From Pseudacidovorax sp. (lineage in GTDB: Bacteria > Pseudomonadota > Gammaproteobacteria > Burkholderiales > Burkholderiaceae_C): a stretch of DNA of 64,000 nucleotides. A program made the translations under genes and the position numbers. This document shows, in pieces, positions 2,697 through 9,113 of this stretch. Under the pieces are notes generated by a model that saw nothing but the letters and a program-made list of their open reading frames with translations, ran no database searches and was not told the DNA's origin. The stretch spans positions 1-64,000 of the forward strand of contig NZ_JAGOPN010000003.1 of assembly GCF_017991995.1 (NCBI RefSeq), in the 5' to 3' direction. How positions within the stretch are numbered: position 1 is the first letter of the stretch; each line of letters begins with the position of its first letter.

Positions 2697-3527
2697 TCAG
2701 GTGGACCAGATGCGCGGCGGCGCCCCGTCCAGCCGCCACAGTTCGCGGCGCCAGTCGGTCCAGATGCCCCGCAGCAGTTGCATCGCCGGCTCGACCACCG
2801 GCGCGAGCACCCGCACGACGATCACCGAGGGCTGTGGGCTGGTGGCGCCGGCGGCCTCGCCCAGGGCGTGGCTGTCGATGCGGGTGCGGGCGATCTCCAG
2901 CAGGGCCTCGCGCCGTTCGCGAGGGATGGGCGTGCCGCTCACATGGAAGAGCGAGGCAATGCAGCGCCGACCGGCCAGGCCCAGCGCACCGTCGAGCAAT
3001 GGGGCATCGCCGGCCTCGATGCGTCCCCGCTCCAGCCAGACACCGGGCACCTCCAGGTGCTGCTGCAGGCTGCCCGCCACGAAGGGCTGGCCTGCATGGG
3101 GCAGGCCGAGGGCCGTCACGTCCCAGCCGATGAATTCGCCGCCCGGTTCCACATCCATGCGCAGGCGGTTGTGGGCCTGGCAGCCGCTGTAGCACAGGGC
3201 TTCCAGCGGCAGCCATTCCAGCCGCGCCCCGGCCTGCACCTGCAGGTGCGTCTGCTGCACCGCGGGTTCGCCTTCGCTGCGGTAGAAGCGGGATGCGCCC
3301 GGCGTGGTGACCAGGCCGTGGCTGCCGGCAGCGGCCGTCGCGTGGATGTCGAGCGTGTCGCCACCCACCAGGCCGCCGGGTGGGTGCACCAGCACGTTGT
3401 GGCAGATGGTGTCGCCTTCGGGGTAGAGGCTCTGCAGGATGCGCAGCGGACCGTCATGGCGGAAACGCGCCACGCTGCGGCCGTCGCGCGCGGCATAGTC
3501 GATGGAGAGTCGGGCGTGCCAGGGCAT
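2697..3527 (-). CDS. ureD: Urease accessory protein UreD (orphan)
   Basis: The product has 276 residues, the normal UreD size. It shows the family blocks LYPEGD, HPPGGLVGGDTL, GASRFYRS and LPLEALCYSGC. UreD (UreH) binds apo-urease and, with UreF and UreG, forms the complex that inserts nickel. In related bacteria ureD usually opens a ureDABCEFG operon. Here no urease structural or accessory gene follows: downstream lie two opposed small genes and a transporter. It is thus an orphan copy, with the rest of the urease system presumably elsewhere. The frame is intact, so it may still act in trans. Its neighbour upstream on the same strand is a nucleoside deaminase. Confidence 0.9.
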   Translation of the reverse strand: MPWHARLSIDYAARDGRSVARFRHDGPLRILQSLYPEGDTICHNVLVHPPGGLVGGDTLDIHATAAAGSHGLVTTPGASRFYRSEGEPAVQQTHLQVQAGARLEWLPLEALCYSGCQAHNRLRMDVEPGGEFIGWDVTALGLPHAGQPFVAGSLQQHLEVPGVWLERGRIEAGDAPLLDGALGLAGRRCIASLFHVSGTPIPRERREALLEIARTRIDSHALGEAAGATSPQPSVIVVRVLAPVVEPAMQLLRGIWTDWRRELWRLDGAPPRIWST

Positions 3528-3657: not shown

Positions 3658-4176
3658 CTACGCGGCCTTCCAGGCCCCGAAGTGCGCCGCACCGGCCTCG
3701 TCGATCAGGGCGGGGCCGAGGCAGTCGATGGCATGCGGCGAGGCGCGGAACACGTCGCGGCAGGAGAGCTCGGCATCGCGCTGGTCCGAGCGCTCGCCAC
3801 GGAACTCGCGCAGCCGCTCGGCATCGATGCCGAACACCACGCGGCCGATGCCCGACCAGAAGATCGCCCCCGCGCACATCACGCACGGCTCGGCCGAGGA
3901 ATAGATCGTGGCCTTGGCCAGCACCTCGCGGCCGAGGCCCAGGCCGGCGAGCTTGCGGATGGCATTGGCCTCGGCATGGCCGGTCACGTCGCCGGTCTCG
4001 CCGCTGTTGCAGTAATCCTCGGTCAGCACGCGGTTGTCCTCGGACACGATGACGGCGCCGAAAGGGCGGTTGCCGCGGCGGCGGCCGGCATGCGACCAGC
4101 CGATGGCCTTGCGCAGGTAGCGGCCGTCGCGTTCGTCGAGCGCGACTTCCGGGGGAAGCAGGGTGGAGAAAGACAT
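3658..4176 (-). CDS. Zinc-dependent nucleoside/nucleobase deaminase
   Basis: The 172-residue protein belongs to the cytidine/deoxycytidylate deaminase superfamily. The zinc site is complete: H67-A-E69 (GHAEAN) gives one ligand and the catalytic Glu, and P97-C98-V-M-C101 gives the other two ligands. The length and the GxxxFWSGIGRVVFG block resemble the guanine deaminase/tRNA adenosine deaminase-like branch acting on free bases, rather than cytidine deaminase proper. The substrate is not certain. It lies between ureD and a small gene, all on the minus strand, and near riboswitch-linked oxygenases, which would fit a purine role. The chosen ATG at 4176 has no strong Shine-Dalgarno. Confidence 0.82.
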   Translation of the reverse strand: MSFSTLLPPEVALDERDGRYLRKAIGWSHAGRRRGNRPFGAVIVSEDNRVLTEDYCNSGETGDVTGHAEANAIRKLAGLGLGREVLAKATIYSSAEPCVMCAGAIFWSGIGRVVFGIDAERLREFRGERSDQRDAELSCRDVFRASPHAIDCLGPALIDEAGAAHFGAWKAA

Positions 4177-4382
4177 GGAGCGGGCGGCGGGCAGGTGCCG
4201 CGGAACGAAGGGGGAAGAGGCAGAACGGCCGGGCGTCGCAGACTGCAGGAGGCATGCCAGCCGCGCCGGAAGGCGCGCGATGGGCACGGGACAGGGATTG
4301 AAATGCGCCAAGCCTGGCGAAGGTGGACGGCCTGCGATGAAGCCGGCAGGAAGGAAAGGAGGATCGGTGCGGGCTCGGGCGA

Positions 4383-4695: not shown

Positions 4696-4792
4696 AACAA
4701 GTGTGACGCTGGATCAAGGCCTTGTGTCGACTGTGAGTACTTGTTTGCGACAGCGGCACGGGCCGGCGCGGGTAGCCCGGCGCGCCACCGCA

Positions 4793-5755
4793 TCAGGCCG
4801 CGGCGGCGATGCCGTAGGTGCGCCGGTACATCTCCACCAGGTGTTCGCCGGCCGTGCACGGCGCGAAGCGGGGCGTCTCGCCCGCTGCGACGGTGCCGGG
4901 CACGGCCTCGATGCGGGCCAGGTAGTCCGGCTCGTAGAAGAAGGGGATGGAATAGCGCGGCGCGCCGCCCGAATGCAGGTTGCGCACGCGGTGCGGGTTG
5001 GAGTGGTACAGGCCGTTGGTCCAGCGCGGAATCATGTCGCCCAGGTTGACCACGAAGCAGCCTGCGATGGGCGTGGCGGGCAGCCAGTCGCCACCGGGCA
5101 TCTGCACCTCCAGGCCGCCGTGGCCGTCCTGCGCCAGGATGGTGATGGCGCCCCAGTCGGTGTGCGCCCCGGCGCCGAACGTGCGCGCGTCGGCGCCTTC
5201 GGGGTGGGCGGGGTAGCGGATCATGCGCAGCGTGACCATGGGGCTGTCGCTGGTGGCGTCGAACCAGGTCTCGGGCAGGTCGAGCGAGAGGGCCATCAGC
5301 TGCATCAGCCGGCGCGACAGGGCCAGCATGGCCTGGATGTACGCCTCGCACTGCGCGGGCGCCTCGGGCACTTCGGCCGGCCACTGGTTGTGGCCGTAGG
5401 TCTGGTAGCCGGCGAGCACATAGGGATGGTCGGCCGGGTAGGCCATGCCGCAGTAGAAGCTTTCCTTGAGGTCGGGGCGGGCGGCGGCGTCGAGGGTCTG
5501 TGCACCCATCAGCTCGTAGCCGCGCATCGCGGGCGACTTGTGCATCTCCAGCGCCTCGCGCGTGGCCATCGGCACGTCGAGCAGCCGGCGGGCCAGCTCG
5601 AACTGGGCCTGCACCTGCGCGGCCGGCACGCCATGGTGGCGCACGTAGAAGAAGCCCGAGGCCATGGCGGCGGCGCGCATCTGCGCGGCCACCTCGGCGC
5701 TGCGCGGCCCGCCCAGGGCGAGCGCGCCGCCCAGGTCGATGACGGGGATGGTCAT
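4793..5755 (-). CDS. Fe(II)/2-oxoglutarate-type oxygenase, isopenicillin N synthase family
   Basis: The 320-residue protein has the N-terminal DIOX_N pattern (IPVIDLGG ... GFFYVRHHGV) and the double-stranded beta-helix core. Iron ligands are H198-T-D200 and H255 (NPHRVRN); R267-Y-S269 is the RxS motif that binds 2-oxoglutarate. It is cytosolic and should hydroxylate or oxidise a small molecule. The substrate is unknown. In eukaryotes the same family includes thymine 7-hydroxylase, so a nucleobase is possible. It follows the NMT1-type binding protein on the minus strand by 17 bases, so the two are probably one transcript under the riboswitch-like leader at 6867-6914. A paralogue lies at 7337. 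Confidence 0.85.
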   Translation of the reverse strand: MTIPVIDLGGALALGGPRSAEVAAQMRAAAMASGFFYVRHHGVPAAQVQAQFELARRLLDVPMATREALEMHKSPAMRGYELMGAQTLDAAARPDLKESFYCGMAYPADHPYVLAGYQTYGHNQWPAEVPEAPAQCEAYIQAMLALSRRLMQLMALSLDLPETWFDATSDSPMVTLRMIRYPAHPEGADARTFGAGAHTDWGAITILAQDGHGGLEVQMPGGDWLPATPIAGCFVVNLGDMIPRWTNGLYHSNPHRVRNLHSGGAPRYSIPFFYEPDYLARIEAVPGTVAAGETPRFAPCTAGEHLVEMYRRTYGIAAAA

Positions 5756-5772
5756 GGCGGCCTCGTACCTTG

Positions 5773-6801
5773 TCAGGCCTTGAGCTTGCGCTCGGCAGCC
5801 GTGGGCAGGAAGCGGTCGGTCCAGATGTCGCCCACGGTGGGCGAGCTCTTCAGGCCGAAGGCGGCGACGGTCTCGTCGATGGTGGCCTGCAGGCGGTCGG
5901 GCGTGGCGGCGCCCCAGCCGAGGGCCATCGTGCCCGGTGTCTTCATGCTGCCGTCGACGATCAGCTGCAGGCGCTCGTGCTCGATGGCCTCGTTGGCCAG
6001 CGGTTCGCGGGCCTTGATGGCGGCGGCGCCCGCCTTCGTGTCCGCCATGGCCTCGATCCAGCCGCGTGTGGTGGCCTTGACGAAGGCCTTCATGGCCTCG
6101 GCGTTCTCCATGCTCTTCGCATTGGCGACCAGACCGTTGCCGTACGACTTCATGCCGTAGTCCGAGAAGCGGAACGCCGTGATCTGCTCCGGGCCCATGC
6201 CGCGCAGCTTGAGGTTGAGCAGACCGGTGAAGTAGAAGTAGCCCGCGCCGTCGAAGTCGCCCTTGACGAAGCGGGTGTCGCCGATGTCGGGCGCCACGTT
6301 CTCCCACTTGACGCTGGCCGGGTCGAAGCCCTGGGCCTTGGCGAAGACGGGAAACAGCTTGCGCGAGGCATTGAAGGGCTGACCCAGCAGCGTCTTGCCC
6401 GCCAGGTCGGTGGGCTTCTTGATGGGGCCGTCCTTGCGCACCAGGATGGCGTTGGGGTTCAGGTCGTACTGGATGGCCACGGCCTTGAGGCCCGCCGTGG
6501 GGTTGTTGACGTCGAACTCGACCATGGTGGCCAGATCGGCCGAGGCGCAGTCGTAGGCGCCGCTGCCCACCAGGCTGATGGCGGCGGCCGAGCCGTTGCC
6601 GGTGTCGATGGCCACGTCGAGCCCGGCGTCCTTGTAGTAGCCGCGCTGCTGCGCCAGCAGGAAGCCGGCGGCCGTGGCCTCGACCTTCCAGCCCAGGTTG
6701 AACTTGAACTTCTGCAGGGAGCCCTGGGCACGCACGAAGGGCGTGGCGGCAAGCAGGGTGGCGGCGCCCGAGGCGGCCAGGAGGGAGCGGCGGTGCAGCA
6801 T
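5773..6801 (-). CDS. NMT1/THI5-like ABC transporter substrate-binding protein
   Basis: The 342-residue protein has a Tat/Sec-like leader (MLHRRSLLAASGAATLLAA ... AQG) and the SsuA/THI5 fold pattern: LGWKVEATAAGFLLAQQRGYYKDAGLDV, DTGNGSA, GSGAYDCASADLATMVEF. It is periplasmic and captures a small organic ligand. It closely parallels the protein at 20093-21124, which has its own permease and ATPase. This copy has no membrane partners beside it and may share theirs. It heads a two-gene unit with the oxygenase downstream. Its leader carries an NMT1-motif riboswitch candidate, the motif itself being named after this protein family. Confidence 0.88.
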   Translation of the reverse strand: MLHRRSLLAASGAATLLAATPFVRAQGSLQKFKFNLGWKVEATAAGFLLAQQRGYYKDAGLDVAIDTGNGSAAAISLVGSGAYDCASADLATMVEFDVNNPTAGLKAVAIQYDLNPNAILVRKDGPIKKPTDLAGKTLLGQPFNASRKLFPVFAKAQGFDPASVKWENVAPDIGDTRFVKGDFDGAGYFYFTGLLNLKLRGMGPEQITAFRFSDYGMKSYGNGLVANAKSMENAEAMKAFVKATTRGWIEAMADTKAGAAAIKAREPLANEAIEHERLQLIVDGSMKTPGTMALGWGAATPDRLQATIDETVAAFGLKSSPTVGDIWTDRFLPTAAERKLKA

Positions 6802-6866
6802 GGTGCGGTCTTCGAACAAATGCGTTGGAAAGCCCCGCGGGCGGTGGGCCGGGCGCGGGGATGCCA

Positions 6867-6914
6867 GAGCAATTTCCGGGCGGCTCCGGGTGGGGCCGCT
6901 GAACGCTTCTACTC
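6867..6914 (-). ncRNA. NMT1-motif (xanthine) riboswitch candidate, minus-strand copy
   Basis: Read on minus, the RNA begins gagtagaagcgttcagc and ends cccggaaattgctc. A GCGGC/GCCGC stem with a 10-base apical loop lies between, and GAG/CUC closes the base. The conserved purine-rich internal loops and short two-stem form agree with my memory of the NMT1 motif, an aptamer reported to bind xanthine and uric acid and found mainly in Burkholderiales. It lies 65 bases before the ATG of an NMT1-family binding protein, a typical regulated gene. I could not run a covariance search. Confidence 0.75.
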
Positions 6915-7101
6915 CTGCAAGGGTTTCAGCACGATCCATGCCGCGCGCGTTGCAATGCCTGCGCGCCCGCGCGGCCTGGGCTCGTGCACCACCAGCGCTC
7001 GCGTGTGGTGCGGCCATGGCGGCGCGCGCACCGCCCTGGTTGGTCACGCCCCGGCTTGGCGCAAGAGACCCTTGGTCGATCTCGGAAAGCGCACAAAACG
7101 C

Positions 7102-7132
7102 TTGCTGCGTCCCGGGGTGCGCCGCCCATAAT
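7102..7132 (+). promoter_or_regulatory. Candidate sigma-70 promoter of the second oxygenase
   Basis: TTGCTG (7102-7107) and CATAAT (7127-7132) are separated by 19 bases. Transcription would start near 7139, directly before the structured element at 7144. That position is what is expected for a 5' leader riboswitch. The spacing is longer than the optimum 17. Confidence 0.4.
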
Positions 7133-7143
7133 CGCGGCCCAGA

Positions 7144-7208
7144 GAGTAGAAGCGTTCAGCAACGCCCGCCTGCCGCCCCGGCAGGTGTCAGCGGCCCGGG
7201 AATTGCTC
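7144..7208 (+). ncRNA. NMT1-motif (xanthine) riboswitch candidate, plus-strand copy
   Basis: The 5' half gagtagaagcgttcagc (7144-7160) is identical to the minus copy. The 3' half cccgggaattgctc (7195-7208) differs at one base. Between them the arm is longer: CGCCTGCC (7167-7174) and GGCAGGTG (7180-7187) form an 8-bp stem (one G-U pair) over the loop gcccc. The basal stem GAG/CUC is extended by A-U and G-U pairs. It lies 128 bases before the ATG of the oxygenase at 7337. Conserved halves with a changed apical stem suggest selection on RNA structure rather than DNA binding. Confidence 0.7.
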
Positions 7209-7336
7209 TTGACGTCCTGCCCACGTGCACCGTGGCGCGGCGCGATCAGGATGCAGCAGCAGCCCCGAAGCCCGCCCTCCATGGTCTCCGACGGACGGAC
7301 AACTTCCTTCCACCCCACTCACCGGAGAGCCCCACC

Positions 7337-8341
7337 ATGACCGCCATCGCCACCACCGCCCCCGACTTCGCCCTTGCCGAGCTTGAAAAGGAATCGCGCA
7401 TGGGCGCGATGGGTTCGGAGACCACCACCCGCGAGGTGCGCCGCATCAGCCTGGCCGACTTCGACACCCGCCGCGCCGAGATCGCCGACCAGCTGTGGGA
7501 TGCCGCCGTCGACGTCGGCTTCTTCCAGCTGGTGGACCACGGCATCGACCTGGCCGACATCCGCGCCGCCTTCGCCGAGGCCGAGCGCTTCTTCGCGCTG
7601 CCCGATGCGGTGAAGGCCCAGTACCCGCTGGCCAACAACGCCGGCTGGGAGAGCAAGGCACAGGTGCGGCCCTCCACCGGCACCGCCGACCAGAAGGAGA
7701 GCTACCAGATCACGCTGCCGCTGATGGGCCCGCTCTTTCCGACCGAGGTGGAGCTGCCCGGCTTCAAGGCTGCCATGTTGGCCTTCGAGCAGAAGAGCTG
7801 GGAGATCGGCATGAAGGTGCTGTCCTGCTTTGCGCTCAAGCTCGGCTTCGACACCGAGTTCTTCACCCGCGCGCACGACAAGTCCAGCGCCGAGTACCAG
7901 AGCACGCTGCGTCTGCTGCACTACTACGCCATCCCGCCCGAGGCGCAGGCGAACCTGGACCTCTGGCGTGCCGGTGCGCACACCGATTTCGACTGCCTCA
8001 CGATCCTCTACCAGCGCCAGGGGCAGGGCGGCCTGCAGGTGTGCCCGGGCAAGGAATTCGAGAAGCAGGAATGGACCTCCATCCCGCCCGACGAGGACGT
8101 CATCACCTGCAACATCGGCGACATGCTCATGCGCTGGAGCGACGACCAGCTGCCCAGCAACTTCCACCGCGTGCGCAACCCGCTGCCGGGCGAGTACATG
8201 GGTCCGCGCTACAGCATCGCCTTCTTCTGCCAGGCCAACCGCGACGCGCTGATCGAATCGCCCTCGGGCAAGTACCCGTCCATCACGGCGGGCGACTACC
8301 TCAAGCAGCGGATTGCGGCGAATTTCGGCAAGAAGTATTGA
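7337..8341 (+). CDS. Fe(II)/2-oxoglutarate-type oxygenase, isopenicillin N synthase family
   Basis: The product is 334 residues. The DIOX_N region (ISLADFDTRRAEIADQLWDA, GFFQLVDHGI) precedes the core, with iron ligands H215-T-D217 and H277 (NFHRVRN) and the co-substrate motif R291-Y-S293. Compared with the paralogue at 4793 it has a longer N terminus and a different middle segment, so the two probably act on different substrates or successive steps. The ATG at 7337 has GGAG upstream. It is the only gene of its transcript, behind a riboswitch-like leader, and converges with the GntR gene. The reaction is likely oxidation of a nucleobase or related heterocycle; that is inference. Confidence 0.86.
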   Translation: MTAIATTAPDFALAELEKESRMGAMGSETTTREVRRISLADFDTRRAEIADQLWDAAVDVGFFQLVDHGIDLADIRAAFAEAERFFALPDAVKAQYPLANNAGWESKAQVRPSTGTADQKESYQITLPLMGPLFPTEVELPGFKAAMLAFEQKSWEIGMKVLSCFALKLGFDTEFFTRAHDKSSAEYQSTLRLLHYYAIPPEAQANLDLWRAGAHTDFDCLTILYQRQGQGGLQVCPGKEFEKQEWTSIPPDEDVITCNIGDMLMRWSDDQLPSNFHRVRNPLPGEYMGPRYSIAFFCQANRDALIESPSGKYPSITAGDYLKQRIAANFGKKY

Positions 8342-8374
8342 GCCTCGCCACGCAGGAGGCGGACCCGACCGTGC

Positions 8375-9064
8375 TCAGACGAGCACGTAGTCCGGATACT
8401 GCCGGCAGATCTCGTCCACTGCGCTGAGCGTGCCCGACAGGTGGGTGCGCAGCGCCTGCTGCGCGGCGGCCGGGTCGCCGGCCTCGATGGCGCGCACGAT
8501 GGCGCGGTGGTCGCGCAGGATCGACTCGGTCTTGCCGGCCGTCGGCAGGTGCAGCCGCCGCAGCCGGTCCACATGGCCCGAGGCCTTGTTGACGAGTGCC
8601 CACAGGCCGGGCACTTCGGCGGCCTCGTACATCAGGCGGTGGAAGTCGCGGTCGGCCTCCACGAAGTCGCCATAACGCTGGGCCTTGGCCAGCGCCGACT
8701 GCTGGGTCACCGTGGCCTTCAGCCGCGCCAGCAGCTCGGGCGGCGCGCTCGTCGCCAGCTGGTGGACCAGCTCCAGCTCCAGCGAGCGGCGCAGAAAGTG
8801 GGACTGTCGTGCCGCCGCGATGTCGATGCGGCTGACCAGCGTGGCGTGCTGCGGAAACACATCCACCAGCCCTTCCTCGGCCAAGCGCAGCAGGGCCTCG
8901 CGCACCGGCGTCTGGCTCACGCCGAAATGGTCGGCCAGCTCCTGGCGCGCGAGCACCGAGCCGGGGGGAAGGTCGAGCGCGAGGATCGCGCCGCGCAGCG
9001 TTTCGAGCACCTGCGGCGCGGCAAGGCGCGTGCGGTCGAGTCGGGTCTTGGACAAGGGAGCCAT
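8375..9064 (-). CDS. GntR-family transcriptional regulator, FCD domain
   Basis: The 229-residue protein has a GntR winged helix at about 16-80 (QVLETLRGAILALDLPPGSVL ... LADHFGVSQTPVREALLRLAEEGLV) and an FCD effector domain after that. The metal-binding pattern D..H (DRDFHRLMYE), then H (RDHRAIVRAIEAGD) and H (RTHLSG) is present. FCD regulators sense organic acids and usually repress the catabolic genes they face. It is divergent from the dehydratase at 9166, with a perfect 16-bp palindrome between. It most likely controls itself and the 9166-15751 cluster. The inducer is unknown, but a sugar acid is likely. Confidence 0.9.
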   Translation of the reverse strand: MAPLSKTRLDRTRLAAPQVLETLRGAILALDLPPGSVLARQELADHFGVSQTPVREALLRLAEEGLVDVFPQHATLVSRIDIAAARQSHFLRRSLELELVHQLATSAPPELLARLKATVTQQSALAKAQRYGDFVEADRDFHRLMYEAAEVPGLWALVNKASGHVDRLRRLHLPTAGKTESILRDHRAIVRAIEAGDPAAAQQALRTHLSGTLSAVDEICRQYPDYVLV

Positions 9065-9084
9065 CAGCGCCCGGATTCTGGCAT

Positions 9085-9113
9085 TTGACGCACTAATATA
9101 TTAGTGTTTCAAT
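9085..9113 (+). promoter_or_regulatory. Promoter of the sugar-acid cluster with operator palindrome in the spacer
   Basis: TTGACG (9085-9090) and TTCAAT (9108-9113) are 17 bases apart. The perfect 16-bp palindrome cactaatatattagtg (9091-9106) fills the spacer, an arrangement that lets a bound repressor block RNA polymerase. Its AT-rich make-up stands out in GC-rich DNA. It lies between the FCD regulator and its likely target. Transcription would start near 9120, which supports the ATG at 9166. Confidence 0.65.

Follow-up and report, generated by a model that had tools for sequence, protein, structure and literature searches.

The window analysed here, the whole 64 kb stretch of Pseudacidovorax DNA, carries two xanthine riboswitch aptamers placed back to back between divergent genes, and in the relatives of this bacterium a -24/-12-like motif lies at a nearly fixed distance upstream of most such aptamers. 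We hold with fairly high confidence the joint reading that the two riboswitches govern divergent purine-scavenging units, in which sigma-54-dependent (nitrogen-responsive) transcription would be combined with translation repressed by xanthine. The divergent layout as such is not new; the upstream sigma-54-like promoter was not found in the literature within our reach, and the proposed sigma-54 coupling, which as a sequence pattern is strongly supported, is what this analysis adds.

Two xanthine riboswitch aptamers and their genes

When all 4227 Rfam families were compared with the window, only two matches exceeded the gathering score, both to RF03054 (xanthine/NMT1; gathering score 36 bits), with E-values of 3.6e-8 and 1.1e-5. 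The aptamer of the NMT1 arm lies on the minus strand at 6862..6919 (50.2 bits) and that of the oxygenase arm, which has an extended P2b hairpin, on the plus strand at 7139..7213 (41.2 bits), each covering model positions 1-56 of 56. The initial annotation had proposed the xanthine riboswitch from a 17-mer that is perfect at 7144-7160 on the plus strand and inverted at 6898-6914, with CCCGGRAATTGCTC after each copy and a G+C stem in between. These positions and features were verified, and the covariance search on both strands bears the proposal out: by the covariance model, both elements are xanthine riboswitch aptamers. The inversion of the 17-mers within one intergenic region could also be expected of an operator that acts as DNA, or of a repeat that arose by chance, with no role in RNA. 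This reading is hardly credible, given that each 17-mer is part of a covariance match that spans the whole model and has stems of its own, and that 24 of the 75 family genomes with the aptamer have a single copy without a partner. The identity of the two 17-mers is no sign of recent duplication either, because the family core gives the same: the exact 17-mer is found in 68 of the 128 RF03054 matches of the family, and the oxygenases encoded on the two sides, OxyA and OxyB, are 31% identical over 318 aligned columns, making recent duplication or conversion of the copies unnecessary. A third RF03054 match above the cut-off is absent from the genome itself, the next-best reaching 17.1 bits, far under it.

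The P1 and P2a pairs, as enforced in folding, are all standard pairs in both aptamers. In a by-eye comparison with the crystal sequence, the conserved J1, J2 and P2a nucleotides around the ligand are all equal in the minus copy, and the plus copy has a single core change, A37 to G, which retains the pair with U14 as U-G (the U14-A37 pairing being our own reading of the numbering in the crystal paper). The lower score of the plus copy and its core change may suggest that one copy, or each of them, has decayed and lost the binding of its ligand; we consider this very unlikely, since the U-G pair is retained and both cores are invariant across six closely related Pseudacidovorax sequences. It should be added that invariance among these six sequences is modest evidence, here and below, because they are close to one another (mean column identity 93%).

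Both aptamers lie in 5' leaders, as had been proposed, one before an NMT1-type binding-protein gene and one before a 2OG-Fe(II) oxygenase gene. On the minus strand, the NMT1/THI5-like gene (5773..6801, ATG at 6801) matches PF09084 with an E-value of 2.3e-34 and has weak matches to SsuA/TauA models, below the cut-offs of those models. It is followed by the 2OG-Fe(II) oxygenase-like gene oxyA (4793..5755), an order kept in several relatives; an NCBIfam search with OxyA gave no match. A TadA-like deaminase gene (3658..4176) lies 617 bases beyond OxyA on the same strand (NF008113, 68.2 bits, under the cut-off of 150). Beyond the deaminase gene there is a UreD gene at 2697-3527, relatives of which also lie within the cluster of a number of other genomes, and the strong urease alpha match of the genome is on the same contig, at a distance of about 204 kb. 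On the plus strand, OxyB (7337..8341, ATG at 7337; PF03171 E 1e-21, PF14226 E 3e-16) is 99% identical to its counterpart in P. intermedius DSM 21352 (Comamonadaceae). Its best solved relative is the thymine dioxygenase 5c3p (E 9e-29), a kinship that fits a nucleobase substrate, and OxyB is likely a purine oxygenase. The genes in the window are of the kinds usually described with the class, namely NMT1, 2OG (pcbC-type) oxygenases and TadA-like deaminase (context in PMC7373994). When plasmid relatives of 4700-9100 were sought, partial matches were found in four records, none covering 80%.

The divergent layout across the family

Among 399 genomes drawn from the family of the window, RF03054 was found at an E-value of 0.001 or less in 75, in 74 of them above the cut-off, with 128 matches in total. 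A divergent pair is present in 44 of the 75 genomes, a count in which split contigs can hide pairs, with the two aptamers 59-305 bp apart (median 159). The rest comprise the 24 genomes with a single match, one with two matches on different contigs and six with other arrangements. The back-to-back arrangement to which the initial annotation drew attention is therefore real and is the commonest layout in the family; it is also already in print, since adjacent copies in opposing orientations are described for Hydrogenophaga intermedia S1 in the legend of Fig. 5A of PMC7373994. The same annotation placed the class in Burkholderiales, where it does occur, although it is not confined to them, being known from alpha-, beta- and gammaproteobacteria according to Yu and Breaker (2020, PMC7373994).

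Genes were recognised by five query proteins, and the first recognised gene is not necessarily the nearest gene. Counted in this way, the 88 paired arms lead to the NMT1 type in 43 cases, to OxyB in 36 and to the deaminase in one, with no match in eight. The NMT1-type proteins of the family form two groups, 74-100% and 24-39% identical to that of the window, and the transporter protein therefore differs under the same switch. At four loci (L039, L045, L063 and L091) the cluster contains one more RF03054 match, at a distance of 2.5-3.9 kb, which in three of the four is below the cut-off.

A sigma-54-like element at the edge of the aptamer

In the columns upstream of the 128 aptamers, counted from the core GTAG, position -30 is G in 66%, and positions -21 and -20 are T in 47 and 49%, respectively. 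The pattern TGGC-N8-TGC has 80 matches in the 110 bases upstream of these aptamers, 77 of which start at -30 to -34, and a model-free search for spaced triplets ranks GGC-N8-TGC first, with occurrences in 105 of the 128 upstream regions, the highest count among 20 shuffled sets being 23. The family element thus resembles sigma-54 (RpoN) promoters in its GG-N10-GC spacing and its TGGC/TTGC-type boxes, the consensus given in PMC12316311 being TGGCACN5-7TTGCT. With a fixed-weight sigma-54 score, a threshold of 12.5 of 15.5 and the -24 G allowed anywhere from -36 to -25 relative to the core GTAG, the element is scored for 112 of the 128 family aptamers, compared with a mean of 1.5 and a maximum of 6 in 200 dinucleotide shuffles, and 73 of the 75 genomes have at least one aptamer with the element. 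In 111 of the 112 positive aptamers the -24 G lies at -27 to -32, and from this near-fixed position the start is predicted to fall shortly before P1, by arithmetic at a distance of 2-4 bases in most cases. According to the first recognised gene, the element is present in 63/64 NMT1, 32/41 OxyB and 2/4 deaminase cases, and in 15/19 cases with no recognised gene. Both arms have it in 36 of the 44 divergent pairs and one arm in the other eight: these are the window and its sister genome G177; G071, G255, G378 and G347, in which the oxygenase arm is clearly without it; and G230 and G132, in which the score falls just under the threshold, at 12.0.

The family counts are inflated by relatedness, and since the shuffles do not take out shared ancestry they overstate the number of independent cases; recurrence of the element in other families and on both arms is the better argument. 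In a near set of 24 aptamers from other Burkholderiales, same-class genomes (which may be beta- or gammaproteobacteria) and two named Betaproteobacteria, Duganella and Craterilacuibacter, the element is present in 14 (shuffles: mean 0.2, maximum 2). The five aptamers of this set that do not reach the Rfam cut-off are all without the element, which therefore occurs in 14/19 of the sound ones. In a more distant set, outside the beta group, it is found in four of 35 aptamers (Acinetobacter 3/3, Marinomonas 1/15; shuffles: mean 0.1, maximum 3). None of the seven aptamers from Chelativorans, Roseomonas, Jiella, Ensifer, Phycocomes and Pseudovibrio, which we take to be alphaproteobacteria, has it. 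Acinetobacter and Duganella aptamers (L145, L149, L156 and L158) show a core variant, with GTATAAGC in place of the GTAGAAGC of the other aptamers analysed, and two Acinetobacter loci (L145 and L149) have a tmRNA gene no more than about 2 kb from the riboswitch.

In the window itself, the NMT1 arm has a sigma-54-like -24/-12 element, CGGCATGGATCGTGCT, at 6928..6943 on the minus strand, with a start predicted near 6917; the initial annotation had overlooked it. Its GG and GC are ten bases apart, at the distance typical of the family, and it departs from the usual boxes in beginning with CGG and having GTGC at the -12 box. Its score of 12.5/15.5 just reaches the threshold, and sites of at least 12.5 number 92 on both strands of the 64 kb (0.9% per 12 positions). 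The stretch is invariant in all six close Pseudacidovorax sequences, and the bases further upstream are variable. Another of the 92 sites, TGGCATGCCTCCTGCA at 4244..4259 on the minus strand (score 13.5), may tentatively be assigned to the deaminase gene that follows; a motif of this type precedes the deaminase gene in three of five Pseudacidovorax loci. On the oxygenase arm, no -24/-12 element is present at the expected place, where the best score is 9.0 of 15.5. GCTTGC and CATAAT are retained there in all six Pseudacidovorax sequences, and CATAAT, at 7127..7132 on the plus strand, is a weak candidate for a -10 box, with a start predicted near 7139. A sigma-70-like promoter on this arm is a guess, because a strict sigma-70 scan of 6790-7345 does not report a promoter.

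The conserved CATAAT on an arm that lacks the -24/-12 element, together with the 31 of 35 aptamers of the more distant set that are without it (including 14 of the 15 from Marinomonas), could indicate that the aptamers are real, but that the element binds another regulator and transcription starts from ordinary sigma-70 promoters. We regard this as improbable. The motif fits the sigma-54 consensus (as given in PMC12316311) and has the GG-N10-GC spacing, the predicted start falls at the aptamer edge, and the full sigma-54 score is reached by one family member and by three matches outside the family. Moreover, a -10 box does not qualify as the general promoter, since a match of at least 5/6 to TATAAT is found in six of the 128 upstream regions, no more than the mean of 6.8 in single-base shuffles.

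If the element is a sigma-54 promoter, the likeliest activator would be NtrC. The genome encodes one RpoN and also an NtrC above the cut-off. NtrC-like dyads of at least 9/10 occur in 15 of the 44 spacers and are absent from the other 29 (shuffles: mean 1.3, maximum 5 in 100); when 200 bases of flank are added, they occur in 22 of the 44 (shuffles: mean 3.8, maximum 11). The best in the window spacer is 8/10. In 14 of the 36 pairs with both elements, the two -24 boxes are separated by 16-47 bp, which is too short for an activator site in between. The idea that in close pairs the P2b stem DNA also serves as the NtrC site of the facing arm was considered and rejected (no enrichment, p = 0.93). 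A spacer block of the window at 7048-7072, GCCCCGGCTTGGCGCAAGAGACCCT, is invariant save for one base in the six Pseudacidovorax sequences.

Proposed two-layer control and comparison with known systems

Ligand binding by the xanthine riboswitch is reported to be repressive (PMC7373994). No intrinsic terminator was found in 6790-7345, and neither leader gave a convincing folding switch. The ribosome site of the plus leader is paired with or without the aptamer enforced, and enforcing the aptamer shifts the minus leader modestly towards a masked ribosome site; the predicted folds of both leaders are not much better than those of shuffled sequences (z -1.4 and -1.1). The oxygenase leader past the aptamer (7214-7339) is largely invariant in the six Pseudacidovorax sequences, and in its predicted fold the ribosome site and start codon are paired with an upstream CAUGG-UCUCCG stretch. 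A leader peptide with its stop overlapping the oxygenase ATG was rejected, its frame being retained in only two of five Pseudacidovorax relatives. In four loci with short leaders (L102, L090, L096 and L072), the ribosome site TTCAGGAG lies a few bases downstream of the aptamer 3' end, CTCTTGAA, and could pair with it if G-U pairs are allowed; this complementarity, seen by eye, is a possible direct expression platform.

In the mechanism that we propose, the minus unit would provide the NMT1-type uptake protein, OxyA and perhaps the deaminase, and the plus unit OxyB, with the transcript of each arm beginning within a few nucleotides of its own aptamer. Back-to-back sigma-54 promoters on both arms, under nitrogen control probably exerted via NtrC, would be the commonest and probably ancestral state, and binding of xanthine or urate would repress translation, giving a gate of the form 'nitrogen short AND NOT oxidised purine sufficient'. 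The NMT1 arm of Pseudacidovorax would have retained the sigma-54 element, and its oxygenase arm would have acquired a sigma-70-like promoter that leaves the start almost where it was. More generally, we think it likely that Burkholderiales, other Betaproteobacteria and some Gammaproteobacteria share a two-layer nitrogen device, in which a sigma-54 promoter, probably NtrC-activated, is placed so that the RNA begins at the first stem of the aptamer, and that on single arms a sigma-70-like promoter can take its place, with the riboswitch and the start position kept.

In the account of Yu and Breaker (PMC7373994), no gene for the degradation of oxidised purines was placed under a xanthine riboswitch and the physiological purpose of the switch was left unclear. 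Their reporter was driven by the E. coli thiC promoter, and a keyword search of the main text yielded no native promoter. Among the papers covered by our literature search, to which neither the motif description of 2017 nor Riva et al. (2008) belonged, there was likewise no link between sigma-54/RpoN and the xanthine riboswitch. The sigma-54-like element in the relatives suggests that the genes are turned on under nitrogen shortage and off again as xanthine accumulates. The sigma-54-like promoter before most family copies thus offers a testable answer to the purpose of the switch, namely the control of nitrogen-scavenging genes, which a lack of nitrogen would switch on and which their own product would then hold in check. 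Nitrogen shortage would then be the condition for testing the native switch, which the thiC-driven reporter (PMC7373994) could not reveal.

Compared with the Ideonella crystal aptamer as given in PMC8266621, the minus copy has the same first 22 bases, from GGAGUAG to GGCC, and the same 3' side over 18 bases, GCCGCCCGGAAAUUGCUC; it differs in the longer natural P2b loop, one base of the P2b stem and the last base of P1, and the plus copy differs in its G for A37 and its extended P2b. Klebsiella hpxDE (Riva et al. 2008, as cited in PMC7373994) likewise comprises oxygenases placed in purine oxidation, a likeness to OxyA and OxyB in proposed role. In core, stems, gene context and opposed adjacent copies, the riboswitch pair of the window is like the class described by Yu and Breaker (RF03054, PMC7373994), of which it is an ordinary member.
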